Origin: Aeromicrobium sp. Root472D3
GTDB taxonomy: Bacteria; Actinomycetota; Actinomycetes; Propionibacteriales; Nocardioidaceae
Direction: 5' to 3'
DNA: 64,000 bases
NCBI RefSeq assembly: GCF_001426485.1
Contig: NZ_LMET01000001.1
Span: 1,669,609 to 1,733,608 of the forward strand
Shown here: positions 55,487-62,681 of the stretch, piece after piece
Position numbering within the stretch: position 1 is the first letter of the stretch
Layout of the letters: every line of letters begins with the position of its first letter
Translations under genes and position numbers: made by a program
The notes under the pieces: model-generated
Seen by the model: the letters and a program-made list of their open reading frames with translations, nothing else
What the model was told of the DNA's origin: nothing
The model's database searches: none

Positions 55487-55559
55487 GGGGCATTGGCGCA
55501 GTTGGTAGCGCGCTTCCATGGCATGGAAGAGGTCAGGAGTTCGAATCTCCTATGCTCCA
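55487..55559 (+). tRNA. tRNA-Ala (GGC)
   Basis: Complete 73-nt cloverleaf: acceptor GGGGCAT/ATGCTCC with the G3-U70 wobble pair that marks alanine tRNAs, D arm GCGC/GCGC, anticodon stem CTTCC/GGAAG with loop ATGGCAT (anticodon GGC at 55520-55522), T arm AGGAG-TTCGAAT-CTCCT and discriminator A. The 3-prime CCA is not fully encoded. A strong terminator follows ten bases later. Confidence 0.97.
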
Positions 55560-55568
55560 CCCGGTACG

Positions 55569-57108: not shown

Positions 57109-57855
57109 GTGCCCCGACCGACCCTGCGATCCGCCTTCATCGCGGTCGTCGTCGCGATCGTGGGCCTGCACCTCGTCGCGGTGACGCTCGCCGCGCTGCC
57201 GCCGAACCGCTACTCCGACGCGACGCGCGGGCAGACGTCGTACCTCGACCCGTACTTCACGCAGAACTGGCGGCTGTTCGCGCCCAACCCGATCTCGGAG
57301 GACCGCAGCCTGCTGTTCCAGGCCGCCTACACCGACGCCGACGGCGACCAGGTGCGCACCGAGTGGGTCGACTGGACGGCCGTCGAGCTCGACCTCGTCC
57401 GGCACCGGCTGATCGGCGGCCGGGCGGGCTACGTCACCAACAAGCTCGTGTCGCCGCTGCAGAGCCGCGCGGCCGCCCTCGACGACTCGCAGGAGGTCGT
57501 CGTGACGAGCTCGCCGCAGACCGACCCGCCGAGCTGGGCCGAGTTGTCGGACGAGCTCGAGTCGGCGGGCGCCTCACCCACGGCACGGCTGGGCTTCCTG
57601 CGCTACGAGCAGGCCGCCACGCAGCTGGCCACCGACGTCCTGCAGGCGCGGTACCCCGACGTCGAGCTGACCGCGGTGCGCTACGCGATCAGGCGTCAGG
57701 GGGTCACGCCGTTCGCCGCCCGTGGCGGCACCGCGGCCGAGCGCCGGGCCGCCCGGCCCGAGGTCGTGCGCGACGTCGGTGGGTGGCGGCGACCGACCCC
57801 GGGCTCGGCGTCCGAGCGGGCGTCCGTCCGCGACTTCGACCGGAGCCACCGGTGA
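57109..57855 (+). CDS. DUF5819-type membrane-anchored protein (copy 1)
   Basis: 248-residue protein with one N-terminal helix (AFIAVVVAIVGLHLVAVTLAALP, about 9-31) and a domain outside the membrane. The signature SYLDPYFTQNWRLFAPNP (about 45-62) is the DUF5819 hallmark, followed by TEWVDWT. The C-terminal 40 residues are basic. Proteins of this type are regularly encoded before an HTTM-domain protein in actinobacteria, and here too the stop overlaps the HTTM start (GTGA). It probably forms a complex with the HTTM protein; its role is unknown. A diverged second copy lies at 60.8 kb. Confidence 0.8.
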   Translation: MPRPTLRSAFIAVVVAIVGLHLVAVTLAALPPNRYSDATRGQTSYLDPYFTQNWRLFAPNPISEDRSLLFQAAYTDADGDQVRTEWVDWTAVELDLVRHRLIGGRAGYVTNKLVSPLQSRAAALDDSQEVVVTSSPQTDPPSWAELSDELESAGASPTARLGFLRYEQAATQLATDVLQARYPDVELTAVRYAIRRQGVTPFAARGGTAAERRAARPEVVRDVGGWRRPTPGSASERASVRDFDRSHR

Positions 57856-58808
57856 TCGCGCGCGCCGCGGCCTGGCTGACCGACGCCAAGCACTCGACGT
57901 ACGGGCTGTCGGTCACCCGCATGATCCTGGGCTTCATCGTCGCGAGCCAGCTGATCGTGAACTGGCCCGACCGGCAGTACACGTGGGGCGACGGGTCGCG
58001 GTGGACCGAGCAGGTGCTGGCCGGCCGCGGCTGGCCGTCGTTCCTCGGCCTGTTCGCGCAGACCGGCGGCGCGTGGTTCGACCTGGCGTACCTGGCCACG
58101 ATCGTGTTCGGCGTGCTGATGATGCTGGGGCTCTACACGCGGGCGTCGTCGTTCATGACGCTGCTGCTGTGGGTGTCGCTGTACGTCAGCAACCCGTTCG
58201 TCGGCTCCGGGGGCGACGCGATCCTGCGCATGGTGCTGCTCTACATGTGCTTCACCGACGCGGGCCGCCACTGGTCGCTCGACGCGCGCAGCCGCCGCCG
58301 GCGGGGCGAGGTGCCGGGCATCGTCCCCGCGTGGATGAGCAACACGCTGCACAACCTCGCGACGATCCTGATCGTCCACCAGGTCGTGATGGTCTACCTC
58401 GGGTCGTCGTTCTGGAAGGTGCAGAGCGCGGTGTGGAAGGACGGCACCGCGGTGTACTACCCGTTGCAGACCGACGCGTACTCGCCGTGGAACGACGTGC
58501 TGCACCCGCTGTACGCGAGCTCGGCGTTCATCGCGGGCGCGACGTACACCGCGATCTTCGTGCAGATGTTCTTCCCGGTGTTCCTGATCTACCGCCCGAC
58601 ACGGTTCGTGGCGCTCCTCGTCGTGACCGCGATGCACCTCGGGATCGGTCTGCTCATGGGGATCATGTACTTCTCGCTGGTCATGATCGCGGTCGACATG
58701 ATCCTCGTCAGCGACACCTCGTGGGTCCGAGCGCGCTCGTGGGTGCACCAGAGGGTCGCGCGGTCATCAGATGAAAGTCCCGGTCGAGATGGGACCAAGG
58801 TCACATAA
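57852..58808 (+). CDS. HTTM-domain (vitamin K carboxylase-like) membrane protein, copy 1
   Basis: 318-residue protein with about six to seven helices, of the HTTM group related to gamma-glutamyl carboxylase (GGCX). YGLSVTRMILGFIVASQLI opens the domain and HWSLDARSRRR is a conserved loop. The segment F187-WKVQSAVWKDGTAVYY carries K189 and W195, which I align from memory with the region of the proposed catalytic Lys218 in human GGCX (KKLDADWVEG). It lacks the C-terminal lumenal part of GGCX. A redox- or oxygen-dependent modification of a partner is possible; substrate unknown. GTG start overlaps the DUF5819 stop. Confidence 0.82.
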   Translation: MIARAAAWLTDAKHSTYGLSVTRMILGFIVASQLIVNWPDRQYTWGDGSRWTEQVLAGRGWPSFLGLFAQTGGAWFDLAYLATIVFGVLMMLGLYTRASSFMTLLLWVSLYVSNPFVGSGGDAILRMVLLYMCFTDAGRHWSLDARSRRRRGEVPGIVPAWMSNTLHNLATILIVHQVVMVYLGSSFWKVQSAVWKDGTAVYYPLQTDAYSPWNDVLHPLYASSAFIAGATYTAIFVQMFFPVFLIYRPTRFVALLVVTAMHLGIGLLMGIMYFSLVMIAVDMILVSDTSWVRARSWVHQRVARSSDESPGRDGTKVT

Positions 58809-58959
58809 CCTGAGCGACACTTTGTTCGTTGCAGTCTTGGAGATGTGCCCAAGATTGTGAGTACAGTACTTCTCAGTAACGTGGCTCATGTCACATGTGC
58901 GGTCCCGAACTCCTGCGTTCGGCATCGGAACCTCATACCTCTAAGGGAGTCCTTTCTCG
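58809..58959 (+). promoter_or_regulatory. leader/promoter region of the surface protein gene
   Basis: 151 bases, markedly less GC-rich than the surroundings. They hold two short palindromic stretches, GAGTACAGTACTTCTC near 58859 and CATGTCACATG near 58889, and end with TAAGGGAGTCC, the ribosome site. A promoter of its own is expected here, but no -35/-10 pair is convincing. The AT-rich leader sets this gene apart from the many leaderless genes in the window. Confidence 0.45.
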
Positions 58960-60744
58960 ATGAACAAGCTTGCCAGGAACACCTTGGCCCTCGGCACGGC
59001 GACGATGATCGTCACCGCCGCGGTGTCGTTCTCCGCCAACGGCGCCGACGCCACCAAGTCGTACTCGACGGGACGGTTCCTGACCGGATCGATCGGCGGC
59101 ACCAACCTCGACTCCCTCGCGCAGCTGCGCGGGGTCACGGCCGCCAACCCCGGCAACGCCGGTGCCAACAAGAACCCGCTCGACCTGACCGTCCTGTCGG
59201 CGCTCCCGATCAACATCCCCGGCGGTCTGAACCTCGACCTCGCCAAGTTCCTGAGCGCCAGCGGTGCCGCCGGCGCGATCAACCAGTACGCGTCGGCCGA
59301 GTCGACCAGCAAGGCGATCGGCGCCTCGGGCGCCGTGAACGACTCCGGTGCCGCCCTGACCACGAACGGCGGCGTCCCCGCCGACGCCAAGGTCTCGCTG
59401 AAGAACGGGCCGCTGTCCGGCATCAACGACAACCTCGCCAGCGTCGACCTGGGCCTCGGCGCCGTCTCGTCCAACACGACCGTCGACAAGGGCAACCCGT
59501 CGCGCAGCTACAAGATCGCGGGCGCCAACCTGCAGGTCGGTGTCCCGCTCATCGGCACGCTCGTCAACCAGCTGTCCACCGCCGTCGCGCCCGTCAAGGC
59601 AGCCGACGACATCACGCTCTCGGCTGCCCAGATCTGCCCGCTGGTCGGCAACACGCTCAACGTCACCACGACGACGCTGCTCGCCCAGCTGGACTCGCTC
59701 GACCTGGGCGCGCTGGCCGACCTGCTCGACCCCATCCTGAACAACCCCGCCGCCCCGATCACGGGCGTCGACCTCTGCGCGGTCAACCCCCTCCTGTCGG
59801 GCGTGCAGGGGCTCACCGCCGGGCTGGACCAGCTCATCAAGGTCCAGGTCACGGGTCTCGACCAGCTCACGACCGGCCTGGCGAACTTCTCCAGCGGTGG
59901 CGTGTCGGTCGACCTCAACACCGGCAAGATCACGCTCGACCTCGAGCAGATCCTGACGGCCGCCGGCGTCAACCTGAACCAGCTGCCGCCCAACACGAAC
60001 CTGCTGCAGTTCATCACGACCGGGCTGATCAGCGAGAAGATCACCTCCGTGCTCGACAAGGCGATCAGCGATCTGGTCACCAACCTGGGCAAGGTCGACG
60101 TCAGTGTCACGCTGGCGGACACCGCGCTGCCGATCAAGCTGACGGACCTGACCGGTCAGCTCGTCCCGCCGCTGGTGCAGGCCCTGACGCAGGCGACGAG
60201 CGCCGTCACGCAGCTGGGAACCCCGATCGACGCCGCGCTGTCGCAGCTCGTCCCGTCGCTCAACAGCCTCGTCGAGCTGACGGCGAACAACCAGTCGCAG
60301 TCCAAGACCCCGACGCTCAGCACCGGCACGGTCAACGCCGGCTCCATCAGCGCGGCCGCGGTGGGCGACTACTACCGCACGTCGGCTTTGAAGATCAACG
60401 TCCTGCGCAGCTCGCTGAACGTCGAGCTGGCCGCGTCGGAGGCTGCGACGCTCGCTGCTGACGTCGTCAGCGACCAGGTCGCCGCCGCCGACGACTCCGA
60501 CGCTCCCGCCGACAACGGTGACGGCAGCGACTCGGTCTCCGACGGTGCCGACGCCAACGCCGACAACGGTGACGACTCCGACACCGTGGCCGACGCCGAC
60601 GCGCAGGCCGACGCCGACGTGACGACGGCACTGCCGTCGACGGGTGCGCCGAACCTGCTCCCGTTCTGGCTGCTGGGCATCGCCCTGCTGCTGTTCGGTG
60701 GTGCGGTGCTCCTCAACGAGAAGCGTCGCCTGAACCAGGTCTGA
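58960..60744 (+). CDS. choice-of-anchor G-type surface protein with LPSTG sorting signal
   Basis: 594-residue secreted protein. Signal peptide with cleavage near ANGADA-TKSYS (about residue 31). The body is rich in Leu, Asn, Thr and Gly with repeated LNQL/LDQL/VTGLDQL-like elements and two cysteines (QICPLVG, VDLCAVNP), resembling the actinobacterial choice-of-anchor G proteins. Residues 505-555 form an Asp/Ala/Asn linker, followed by LPSTG (558-562), a hydrophobic helix and EKRRLNQV, a standard sortase signal. No sortase gene is in the window. It is flanked on both sides by DUF5819-HTTM gene pairs, which suggests that these act on it (inference). Confidence 0.8.
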   Translation: MNKLARNTLALGTATMIVTAAVSFSANGADATKSYSTGRFLTGSIGGTNLDSLAQLRGVTAANPGNAGANKNPLDLTVLSALPINIPGGLNLDLAKFLSASGAAGAINQYASAESTSKAIGASGAVNDSGAALTTNGGVPADAKVSLKNGPLSGINDNLASVDLGLGAVSSNTTVDKGNPSRSYKIAGANLQVGVPLIGTLVNQLSTAVAPVKAADDITLSAAQICPLVGNTLNVTTTTLLAQLDSLDLGALADLLDPILNNPAAPITGVDLCAVNPLLSGVQGLTAGLDQLIKVQVTGLDQLTTGLANFSSGGVSVDLNTGKITLDLEQILTAAGVNLNQLPPNTNLLQFITTGLISEKITSVLDKAISDLVTNLGKVDVSVTLADTALPIKLTDLTGQLVPPLVQALTQATSAVTQLGTPIDAALSQLVPSLNSLVELTANNQSQSKTPTLSTGTVNAGSISAAAVGDYYRTSALKINVLRSSLNVELAASEAATLAADVVSDQVAAADDSDAPADNGDGSDSVSDGADANADNGDDSDTVADADAQADADVTTALPSTGAPNLLPFWLLGIALLLFGGAVLLNEKRRLNQV

Positions 60745-60753
60745 CCGATCCGA

Positions 60754-60793
60754 CACGACTGCCGGTGACCCGCGTGGGTTGCCGGCAGTCGTG
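60754..60793 (+). terminator. terminator of the surface protein gene
   Basis: Twelve-bp stem CACGACTGCCGG/CCGGCAGTCGTG with inner pairing CCC/GGG, ten bases after the stop. It separates the gene from the second DUF5819/HTTM pair. Confidence 0.75.
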
Positions 60794-60818
60794 CGTCCGG
60801 CCCGACCCCGCCCCGACC

Positions 60819-60824
60819 TAGGAT
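60819..60824 (+). promoter_or_regulatory. -10 hexamer of second DUF5819/HTTM operon
   Basis: TAGGAT seven bases before the ATG at 60832. It overlaps the in-frame ATG at 60823, which is therefore not the start. Confidence 0.5.
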
Positions 60825-60831
60825 GACTCGC

Positions 60832-61590
60832 ATGCCGCCAACGCCCGTGGAGGACGCCGTCGAGCGTCCCCGGCACCGGTGGATCGTCGAGCTGCTGCTC
60901 GTCGTGGTCCTGGTGCACTCGGTGGCGCTCGCGCTGTGGCTCGCGCCGTCGAGCCCGATCCGTGACGCCGTCGGCGAGGGACGTCTGGCCAGCTACGTCG
61001 ACCCGTACTTCCAGCAGGGGCGCGACGTCGTCGGCATCGGCACGCAGCAGGTCGACGAGTCGTTCAGCGTCCGTGCCTACGTGGCGCCCGACGCCGGTGG
61101 CAAGGGCGCGGCGACCGAGTGGGTCGACGTGACACGCGACGACAACCGCGCCAACCGCCACGAGCTGGCACCCGAGCGCGCCCACCTGATCGCGCGGAGG
61201 CTCGCCACCAACCTGAACCTCGCGATGTTCAACCTCAGCGAGGCGCAGCGGCGCGTCGTGCGGGGCCTGACCGCCGACGACCTGCCGAGCACCGTCAGGC
61301 CGACCCTCGAGGGCGCCGGCGGACGACCGGAGGCCGTCCGGTTCTTTCAGGCCTACGACCAGATGGCGACGCAGTTCGCGTCGCTGTACGCCGAGGCCAG
61401 GTGGGGCGAGGGCGGACGCATCGTCCAGGTGCAGTTCCGGGTCGGCCGCCGCACCGTGCCGTCGTACGCCGACCGCGCCACCACGTCGCTGGACGACGTC
61501 GCGTTCCGCGACTTCTCGTTCGGGTGGCGCCGGGCCTTCCGGGGCTCGCTCGACGCCCGCGACACCTTCGACTCCTACGTGAAGAAGTGA
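60832..61590 (+). CDS. DUF5819-type protein, diverged (copy 2)
   Basis: 252-residue protein with one N-terminal helix (IVELLLVVVLVHSVALALWLAP) and an extracytoplasmic domain. SYVDPYFQQG and TEWVDVT match copy 1 (SYLDPYFTQN, TEWVDWT), so the two are paralogues. The LFAPNP motif expected after the PYF..Q element is replaced by DVVGIGTQQ, and the C-terminus differs: it ends FRDFSFGWRRAFRGSLDARDTFDSYVKK. The following HTTM gene begins in the stop codon (TGATG). Because the divergence is concentrated in the family's best conserved motif, copy 2 may have another partner or substrate. Confidence 0.72.
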   Translation: MPPTPVEDAVERPRHRWIVELLLVVVLVHSVALALWLAPSSPIRDAVGEGRLASYVDPYFQQGRDVVGIGTQQVDESFSVRAYVAPDAGGKGAATEWVDVTRDDNRANRHELAPERAHLIARRLATNLNLAMFNLSEAQRRVVRGLTADDLPSTVRPTLEGAGGRPEAVRFFQAYDQMATQFASLYAEARWGEGGRIVQVQFRVGRRTVPSYADRATTSLDDVAFRDFSFGWRRAFRGSLDARDTFDSYVKK

Positions 61591-62681
61591 TGATGACGAC
61601 GTTGTGGCGTGGCCTCGTGGGCTCCGTGCAGGGGCTCAGGGCCGGGATCGACGACTGGCTCGTGGGCACGCGGCACGCCGTCCGCGCGGCGGCGGTCTGC
61701 CGCATCGCGACGGGCCTGGCGGTGCTGGGGCTGCTGGCCTCCAACTTCTCGACCCGCGACATGTGGGTCGGGCAGGGCTCGGTGTGGGCCGAGCCGGCGC
61801 GAGCCATCAGCAGCTTCCCGGAGCTGACGCTGCTCGACGGCGTCAGCTCGGACGTGCTGGCGCTGCTGTACGTCGTGACGATGCTCGCGGCCCTCGCGTT
61901 CGTGCTGGGCTGGCACGCCAAGGCCGCCAACGTCGTGACGTTCATCGGGTTCATCGCGGTCGTCGGCCAGAACCCGGTCGTCGGGTCGCCCGGCGACAAC
62001 CTGGTGCGCCTGACGCTGCTGTGGCTGCTGCTGATGCGCGCGTCCGACCACTGGTCGCTCGACGCCGCACGACGCAGCCGCCGTCTCGCCGCGGGCAAGG
62101 AGGCGTCCCGCGAGGAGGACGCGCTGCCGACGTGGCTGTCGGCGGGACTGCACAACGTGGGTCTCGTGGCGCTGGGTGCTCAGACCGTGCTGGCGGCCAT
62201 GGCCGCGGGGCTCGACAAGGTCGCCGACCGGTCGTGGCAGCAGGGCACGGCCCTGTACTCGACGTTGCAGCTGCCCGAGTCGCGGCCGTTCCCGGCGCTG
62301 TCGGACCTGCTCGCCGACCACCGCGTGCTGCTGGCGCTGCTGACGTACGGCGTGCTGCTCTCGCAGCTGTTCTTCGGACCGCTGCTGCTGAACCGGTACA
62401 CGCGTCGACTCGTGATCGTGCTGGCCGTCGTGGTCAACGTGCTGCTCGCGGTCGTCTTCGCGCAGCCGTGGAGCGCGCTCAGCACGCTCGGCGTGACGCT
62501 GCTGTTCGTGTCGGACCGGACGTGGGAGCGCGTCGAGGACGTCGTGCTCGGTGCCGCCCAGCCGGTGACCGACTGGACGGTCGAGCGTGGTTACGACGTG
62601 CTCGACGGCGTCGACGTGGTGCGCTACAACGTCGTGCTGCCGGTCGTCGACTGGGTGCGGTTCACGATCCTGCGGCGCTAG
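61590..62681 (+). CDS. HTTM-domain (vitamin K carboxylase-like) membrane protein, copy 2
   Basis: 363-residue paralogue of the HTTM protein at 57.9 kb with six to seven helices. It keeps HWSLDAARRSRR and the segment G208-LDKVADRSWQQGTALYSTLQ, with K210 and W216 at the places of K189 and W195 of copy 1. It is longer by 45 residues, mainly an N-terminal and a C-terminal cytoplasmic tail (DRTWERVEDVVLGAAQPVTDWTVERGYDVL). Start ATG 61590 shares its base with the stop of copy-2 DUF5819; a GTG at 61587 is an alternative. Its end overlaps the convergent MFS gene by 20 bases. Confidence 0.82.
   Translation: MMTTLWRGLVGSVQGLRAGIDDWLVGTRHAVRAAAVCRIATGLAVLGLLASNFSTRDMWVGQGSVWAEPARAISSFPELTLLDGVSSDVLALLYVVTMLAALAFVLGWHAKAANVVTFIGFIAVVGQNPVVGSPGDNLVRLTLLWLLLMRASDHWSLDAARRSRRLAAGKEASREEDALPTWLSAGLHNVGLVALGAQTVLAAMAAGLDKVADRSWQQGTALYSTLQLPESRPFPALSDLLADHRVLLALLTYGVLLSQLFFGPLLLNRYTRRLVIVLAVVVNVLLAVVFAQPWSALSTLGVTLLFVSDRTWERVEDVVLGAAQPVTDWTVERGYDVLDGVDVVRYNVVLPVVDWVRFTILRR

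Follow-up and report, generated by a model that had tools for sequence, protein, structure and literature searches.

Does vitamin K (menaquinone)-dependent protein modification take place on bacterial cell surfaces? This question is raised by a 64,000-nucleotide stretch of DNA from Aeromicrobium sp. Root472D3 (contig NZ_LMET01000001.1, positions 1,669,609 to 1,733,608; hereafter the window), in which two gene pairs, each encoding a DUF5819 protein and an HTTM protein, lie on either side of a gene for a surface protein. HTTM genes are common in bacteria, and to our knowledge the chemistry of an HTTM protein is settled only for animal GGCX. Our analysis points to an uncharacterised route by which proteins may be completed outside the cell, and we think it reasonably probable that DUF5819-HTTM is a maturase of the GGCX or SdpA-SdpB type that acts on the neighbouring secreted protein and uses quinol. 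The features of the locus are as follows.

57109 to 57855, forward strand: DUF5819-1 (PF19136, 95.5 bits), an N-terminal transmembrane (TM) helix and an extracytoplasmic domain
57268 to 57291, forward strand: family motif W-R-L-F-A-P-N-P (W54 to P61 of DUF5819-1), kept
57852 to 58808, forward strand: HTTM1 (PF05090, 51.9 bits), a GGCX-like membrane domain
58416 to 58418 and 58434 to 58436, forward strand: K189 (equivalent of GGCX K218) and W195 of HTTM1, kept together with H262 and F274
58809 to 58959, forward strand: intergenic stretch of 151 bp ahead of the surface gene, a local dip in guanine-plus-cytosine (GC) content to about 0.64
58960 to 60744, forward strand: choice-of-anchor G surface protein of 594 residues (NF033766, 168 bits), with a signal peptide and an Asp/Asn-rich stalk
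60631 to 60645, forward strand: LPSTG near the C-terminal end of the surface protein, followed in the sequence by a TM/hydrophobic stretch and RR
60754 to 60793, forward strand: intercistronic hairpin with an 18-bp stem (G-U allowed), a 4-nt loop and the core CCGGTGAC
60823 to 61590, forward strand: DUF5819-2 (PF19136, 99.8 bits), with FQQGRDVVGIG from 61009 where W-x-x-F-A-P-x-P is lost
61590 to 62681, forward strand: HTTM2 (PF05090, 59.9 bits)
62217 to 62219, 62436 to 62438 and 62472 to 62474, forward strand: K210 of HTTM2 (kept, as is W216), N283 in place of His and S295 in place of Phe

Both DUF5819 proteins and both HTTM proteins score above the Pfam gathering cut-offs of their families (27.1 bits for PF19136 and 27.7 bits for PF05090), and the surface protein scores above that of NF033766 (45 bits). 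In each pair the stop codon of the DUF5819 gene overlaps the start codon of the HTTM gene (GTGA at 57852-57855 in pair 1, GTGATG at 61587-61592 in pair 2). The initial annotation had described two coupled pairs flanking an LPSTG surface gene on one strand, and family searches confirmed all five genes in place. Genome searches returned no DUF5819 or HTTM gene beyond these two pairs.

The relationship to GGCX is clearest for the HTTM protein. A profile of 72 HTTM sequences matched human GGCX with an E-value of 1.2e-19 and placed the Lys of the family on K218 (numbering checked). The predicted model of HTTM1 (mean predicted local distance difference test score, pLDDT, 94.7) aligned with GGCX residues 47-328 at Z 21.2 over 274 residues with a root-mean-square deviation of 3.8, and the best match other than GGCX reached Z 5.6. 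By profile and by fold, the HTTM protein has the membrane core of GGCX/VKGC, with an equivalent of the catalytic base Lys218. The correspondence of this Lys to K218, which the initial annotation had proposed, was thus borne out in the profile alignment, and the comparison with GGCX that it had suggested points to a GGCX membrane fold in the HTTM1 model. The element K-V-x4-W-x2-GTA-x-Y is present letter for letter in both HTTM proteins, from K189 in HTTM1 and from K210 in HTTM2, as it had been described there.

One report (PMC12589487) gives K218 as the base of GGCX, describes a naphthoquinol pocket with W223 and F299, and states that menaquinone-4 co-purified with the human protein. When 164 sequences were aligned together (the 72 HTTM proteins, 83 one-piece GGCX homologues of bacteria, 6 HTTM proteins of fusion loci and 3 SdpB), the Lys was conserved in 163, the Trp and an Arg in all 164, and the F299 equivalent everywhere except in ten HTTM proteins that correspond to HTTM2 (copy 2, see below). 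The Glu-site His of GGCX, by contrast, does not appear to be conserved in HTTM proteins linked to DUF5819: the His160 column is in register with W-S-x-D, with no His among the letters shown. A His stands one residue after this column in 13 of 69 DUF5819-linked HTTM proteins, including HTTM1 and HTTM2, and one residue before it in 45 of the 83 one-piece homologues. Because the Lys, Trp, Arg and pocket Phe are kept and the Glu-site His apparently is not, the quinol half of the chemistry looks, from the alignment, to have been kept and the substrate side to have changed; the cofactor would be menaquinol. In sum, the DUF5819-HTTM system shares with GGCX and its one-piece homologues (PF05090 plus PF22777) the membrane core and the equivalents of K218 and W223, as well as that of F299 except in copy 2. 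It differs in consisting of two chains instead of one, in an outer domain (DUF5819) that has no significant sequence similarity to the luminal domain of GGCX, and in HTTM proteins in which the Asp of the VLDL stretch is mostly replaced by Q or E. One-piece homologues occur across many phyla: within the genome collection, a relative of the query is encoded by 449 of 511 candidate stretches (80 were kept, L134-L213). Judged by title, the listed matches of a literature search for HTTM or DUF5819 include no paper on a bacterial HTTM function.

If HTTM is the membrane core, is DUF5819 the outer half? The AlphaFold2 model of DUF5819-1 has one TM helix and an outer domain (mean pLDDT 90.6), and 59 of 69 DUF5819 proteins carry W-x-x-F-A-P-x-P. 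In another class, 6 of 39 genomes encode a protein part resembling one first seen in L223. In five of the six, a single chain runs from HTTM through a TM helix to a W-x-M-F-A-P-x-P domain, as in GGCX; the HTTM frame found in the sixth genome (L233) has no W-x-M-F-A-P-x-P part. These single-chain proteins are a new observation. Taken with short relatives that stand alone, their C-terminal parts are by hhalign homologous to DUF5819 (P 1e-16 to 1e-18), and the profile of the short type (A5) finds DUF5819-1 at 2e-4. Because single-chain HTTM-TM-DUF5819-type proteins exist in five genomes, the DUF5819-HTTM pair has the appearance of an enzyme of GGCX shape divided into two chains, in parallel to SdpA-SdpB. 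When the fused proteins were compared with the one-piece GGCX homologues, local alignment was confined to the membrane part (P 2e-17); a profile alignment forced into global mode spanned their full length and matched W-x-M to W-x-M (P 2e-21). The subset of short and fused types aligned with the luminal part of GGCX at P 0.0016, its score of 26.2 exceeding those of 22 decoy profiles (21.9 or less), a small set that may include relatives; DUF5819 and the short types against five one-piece homologues gave P 0.05 to 0.61, and SdpA against the one-piece homologues gave P 0.47. We conclude firmly that DUF5819 is the positional equivalent of the outer part of GGCX, and only tentatively that it is homologous to the luminal domain. 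In L102 (6054-7949) and L116 (9346-11253), we also observed an HTTM-like region fused to what appears by eye to be an alpha/beta-hydrolase, adjoining a DUF5819-like gene, which adds another architecture to the superfamily.

A bacterial precedent for such a two-chain system is SdpABC of Bacillus subtilis (TIGR04034/TIGR04033/TIGR04032). According to PMC6818787, SdpA and SdpB are required for the processing of SdpC, and on this account the statement in the initial annotation that HTTM proteins mostly have no known bacterial function was too strong for the superfamily. An sdpC-sdpA-sdpB locus in our set (L122, whose SdpC score is just under the cut-off) encodes a small one-TM protein and an HTTM protein after a secreted precursor, in the same order as the pair cassettes. 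SdpB is an HTTM protein with the same Lys and Trp as the window HTTM proteins, and SdpA, like DUF5819, carries W-x-x-F-x-x-x-P after its TM helix. The differences are that SdpA has four conserved Cys (3 sequences) whereas neither window DUF5819 has any, and that the presumed substrate in the window is a large wall-anchored protein accompanied by two pairs. Neither window DUF5819 matched the SdpA family (PF17418/TIGR04034) at E 0.1, no match to the VKGC luminal domain (PF22777) was found at E 0.1 in the window HTTM or DUF5819 proteins, and HTTM1 and HTTM2 scored 55.7 and 19.6 bits against the SdpB model TIGR04033 (cut-off 178.4); by these curated tests, DUF5819-HTTM is not a member of SdpA, SdpB or GGCX. 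Among the literature found for two of the terms SdpA, SdpB and HTTM together, none mentions HTTM.

The link between the pairs and surface genes was examined in other genomes. DUF5819 was found in 15 of 196 genomes at the level of the order, and 58 of 296 genomes at the level of the class were above the cut-off. Regions were fetched for all the order-level places and for a hand-picked part of the class-level ones, and 69 DUF5819-HTTM pairs were read, that is, 77 DUF5819-type open reading frames less the repeats L083 and L084 and the short-type loci L102-L105, L115 and L116. The two genes overlap by exactly 4 bp, as called, in 60 of the 69. Sixteen pairs come from a family with large genomes (f20). 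Among the other 53, all 52 with a readable flank belong to units with a C-terminally anchored surface gene: this gene, mostly of the LPxTG type, stands directly before the pair in 34; 7 are the second pair of a tandem behind a surface gene; 10 are the first pair of a double cassette as in the window, with the surface gene directly after; and the last (L066) adjoins a surface-protein stub at a contig end. The flank of L097 was unreadable, the contig end being too close. In the family f21, a single LPDTG protein is followed by two tandem pairs at L094, L109-L112 and L114 (a row of L109 labelled 'C-TM' was re-read by hand as HTTM), and two consecutive units of surface protein and pair occur at L095, L096, L098 and L113. 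No relative was found on viral contigs.

Co-occurrence gave the same picture. Outside f20, DUF5819 and anchor-G were both present in 24 genomes, DUF5819 only in 4, anchor-G only in 4 and neither in 234 (Fisher p 4.5e-26); at the level of genera the corresponding counts were 7, 0, 2 and 95 (p 1.7e-9). For this test 30 f20 genomes with a match were removed, and any unlisted f20 genome would fall in the last class. The association of pair and surface gene is not due to chance, and the link, which the initial annotation had drawn from one locus, is strong and recurs outside the genus of the window. The dependence is one-sided, as anchor-G genes exist without DUF5819.

The situation in f20 is different, as 12 of the 16 pairs lack a convincing secreted gene upstream; at five of these (L085, L093, L107, L119 and L120) a signal-like upstream reading frame was judged by eye to be the shadow of an opposite gene. 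The initial annotation had counted pairs standing mostly without a nearby surface gene as an argument against its proposal, and in f20 this argument applies in part. At L088 in this family, the pair follows an ice-binding-like protein (45% identity over 274 residues to a PF11999 protein), and at L089, L091 and L117 the gene before it encodes a secreted peptide (109-128 residues as called) and shares 4 bp with DUF5819. Seventeen plasmid records contained an HTTM1 relative, and in all 6 that were opened DUF5819 stood immediately before HTTM. The partner was an LAFTG surface protein on a Curtobacterium plasmid (53-55% identical to those of L070-L072), an ice-binding protein on two Streptomyces plasmids and a small secreted peptide on two more. 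Taken together, the common denominator is a secreted protein, usually encoded immediately upstream, and the partner types look unrelated. The peptides of the latter two plasmids (L240 and L242), like those of L089, L091 and L117, are small, Ala-rich and encoded just before DUF5819, some with overlap, and these loci are possibly a peptide system like sdpABC. Genes for DCC1/DUF393 and a serine hydrolase lie downstream in L240 and L242.

Are the two pairs of the window equivalent? Their HTTM proteins are 29% identical and their DUF5819 proteins 32%. The ten double cassettes give the same picture in the tree of HTTM and in that of DUF5819: their first and second copies (copy 1 and copy 2) form separate clades, and copy 2 groups with the single surface-linked pairs of the genus (the trees are quick ones, and long-branch warnings touch copy 2). 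Thus, of the duplicated module that the initial annotation had described, the two pairs stand, whereas a recent tandem duplication was rejected on account of the separate clades; these are two old paralogous lineages, and copy 2 has given up other conserved positions. W-x-x-F-A-P-x-P is absent from all ten copy-2 DUF5819 proteins and kept in the other 59 of the 69. All ten copy-2 HTTM proteins have Asn in place of a His that every other DUF5819-linked HTTM keeps, and Ser or Ala in place of the quinone-pocket Phe; the Lys and Trp are kept. This simultaneous loss in both partners, with the Lys and Trp retained, would fit a copy-2 pair that gave up catalysis and still binds. Because HTTM2 lacks the His and the quinone-pocket Phe, HTTM1 and HTTM2 are probably not equivalent enzymes; judging from these residues and from the lost DUF5819 motif, copy 2 is probably catalytically dead and HTTM2 a pseudo-enzyme. 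In f21 there are also two HTTM classes per locus, both of which keep the His and the pocket Phe, so the presence of a second pair does not by itself imply that one of them is dead.

The surface protein itself is a clear member of the choice-of-anchor G family and has the layout of a sortase substrate, with a C-terminal LPSTG..NEKRRLNQV containing a hydrophobic stretch, and two sortase genes are present in the genome. It had no match at E 0.1 to the curated LPXTG anchor models (Pfam, TIGR01167), although the surface proteins of L068 and L094 do match a curated model. A dedicated membrane pair for this family is not described in the literature searched, in which we found no paper naming choice-of-anchor G or DUF5819, and some of its members stand without a pair. 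A plasmid search with the surface protein as the query returned no match.

We propose that each pair would act as a two-chain membrane enzyme, the chains held in a physical complex, that finishes the neighbouring secreted protein as its substrate, either by modifying it or by preparing it for cleavage. HTTM would supply a membrane core of the GGCX type, including the base Lys and the naphthoquinol pocket, and DUF5819 the TM helix and the outer domain, whose counterparts in GGCX make up the C-terminal part of a single polypeptide and hold the substrate. The reaction may take place at the external side of the membrane, either ahead of the anchoring of the LPSTG protein by sortase or in the course of it. 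Pair 1 would carry out the catalysis, and pair 2, a paralogue without catalytic activity, would serve as a scaffold, substrate holder or regulator. We favour such a maturase because the gene order matches sdpC-sdpA-sdpB and because SdpA and SdpB are needed for SdpC.

The hairpin between the surface gene and pair 2 may set their proportions. In the window it folds at -43.6 kcal/mol (z -4.7), and a strong hairpin at this place was found in all 14 junctions folded from the same genus (z -4.1 to -7.8; 14 of 16 in the range L055-L072, with L059 and L069 left out); the two f21 junctions folded gave z -2.7 and +1.3. The 5' core CCGGTGAC does not vary among the double cassettes; their outer stems change from locus to locus yet stay paired, with an unbroken stem of 15-19 pairs (G-T allowed) in 9 of 10, the exception being L059. 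The hairpin has no listed T-run and was not among the T-tailed terminator-like sites returned by the scan. As a terminator or stabiliser, it would keep the surface protein abundant and in excess over a scarce pair 2; it may also be a binding site. The 151-bp stretch ahead of the surface gene (58809-58959) is presumably its promoter region, and a promoter scan there returned no sigma-70 consensus. Upstream of the cassette lies a tRNA-Ala(GGC) gene (55487-55561), followed by a GntP permease gene on the opposite strand; at a spot that looks equivalent, L068 and L069 carry another surface-protein unit.

If the pair is an enzyme, a narrower alternative would be a true gamma-carboxylase, which would turn acidic residues of the stalk into gamma-carboxyglutamate (Gla)-like residues that bind calcium and stiffen the stalk. 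The GGCX fold and the K218 equivalent of HTTM agree with this, as does the acidity of most paired stalks, which carry runs such as DADADA or EVDGTEVDG; the median of the maximum number of Asp plus Glu per 50 residues is 21 in 34 paired anchor-G proteins versus 10.5 in 8 unpaired ones (p 0.002). However, the same cassette accompanies stalks of AQAQ or NANAP at L060-L062, with 4 Asp and no Glu in 60 residues, which weakens the explanation and led us to reject acidic-stalk carboxylation as the rule. The stalk in the window itself has 18 Asp and no Glu in the 60 residues preceding its anchor, the Glu-site His appears not to be conserved, and the ice-binding and small-peptide partners lack a long acidic repeat. 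We therefore regard carboxylation as quite improbable. Disulfide formation as a general function was also rejected, as 9 of 14 listed f21 paired surface proteins (one of them a contig-end fragment) have no Cys.

Could the pair do without chemistry altogether? A chaperone or holder that aids the export, folding or sorting of the secreted protein would suit partners of apparently unrelated fold, which have only secretion in common, and would account for the retention of copy 2 in ten double cassettes despite its loss of conserved residues. A mere holder would not need the Lys, Trp, Arg and quinone-pocket Phe that are kept nearly everywhere else, and we consider this unlikely, though somewhat less so than carboxylation. 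The pair might also be a DoxD/DoxX-like module for quinone or lipid redox or biosynthesis, with a general membrane function, its neighbourhood reflecting regulation only. HTTM1 has a weak, sub-threshold DoxD match, some HTTM genes adjoin DCC1-like or DUF393 genes, and most of the f20 pairs read lack a convincing secreted gene, but several bacterial families repeat the pattern of a secreted gene immediately upstream, with partner types that look unrelated, and we give such a module little chance.

Several results weigh against the maturase that we favour. The partner families share no recognisable target site, and the Glu-site His does not appear to be conserved. Convincing secreted genes are lacking not only upstream of the 12 f20 pairs but also upstream of the B. 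subtilis plasmid pair (1 of the 6 plasmids), and anchor-G stands without DUF5819 in 4 of 28 genomes, and in 6 of 15 above the cut-off. The sequence link between DUF5819 and SdpA, an alignment of DUF5819 against three SdpA sequences in which hhalign aligned the shared motif, reached only P 0.008. Homology of DUF5819 to the GGCX luminal domain was not reached by sequence (hhalign P 0.012-0.26 against the 83 one-piece homologues), the sequence search of the PDB with DUF5819 returned no GGCX, and that with the fused-protein profile reached GGCX with no better than E 0.44, over its membrane part alone. In structure DUF5819 resembles GGCX (about residues 396-495) weakly, with Z 2.2-2.7 in four GGCX chains, where 26 of 976 chains had Z of at least 2 and an unrelated chain led at 2.8; the best Foldseek match with DUF5819 had E 0.24.

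More speculatively, DUF5819-HTTM, SdpA-SdpB and the single-chain HTTM-W.MFAP.P proteins might form one superfamily of split or fused menaquinol-driven protein-modifying enzymes, with animal GGCX as one branch, that modify secreted bacterial proteins (surface adhesins, ice-binding proteins and small peptides); in the genus of the window an active pair would work with a catalytically dead partner pair. This wider view is possible, though we hold it with clear doubt. The compact cassette, with a candidate substrate and a natural set of apparently active and inactive enzymes, makes the question of vitamin K-dependent modification on bacterial surfaces testable, and resolving it would also help to explain how SdpA and SdpB act on SdpC.

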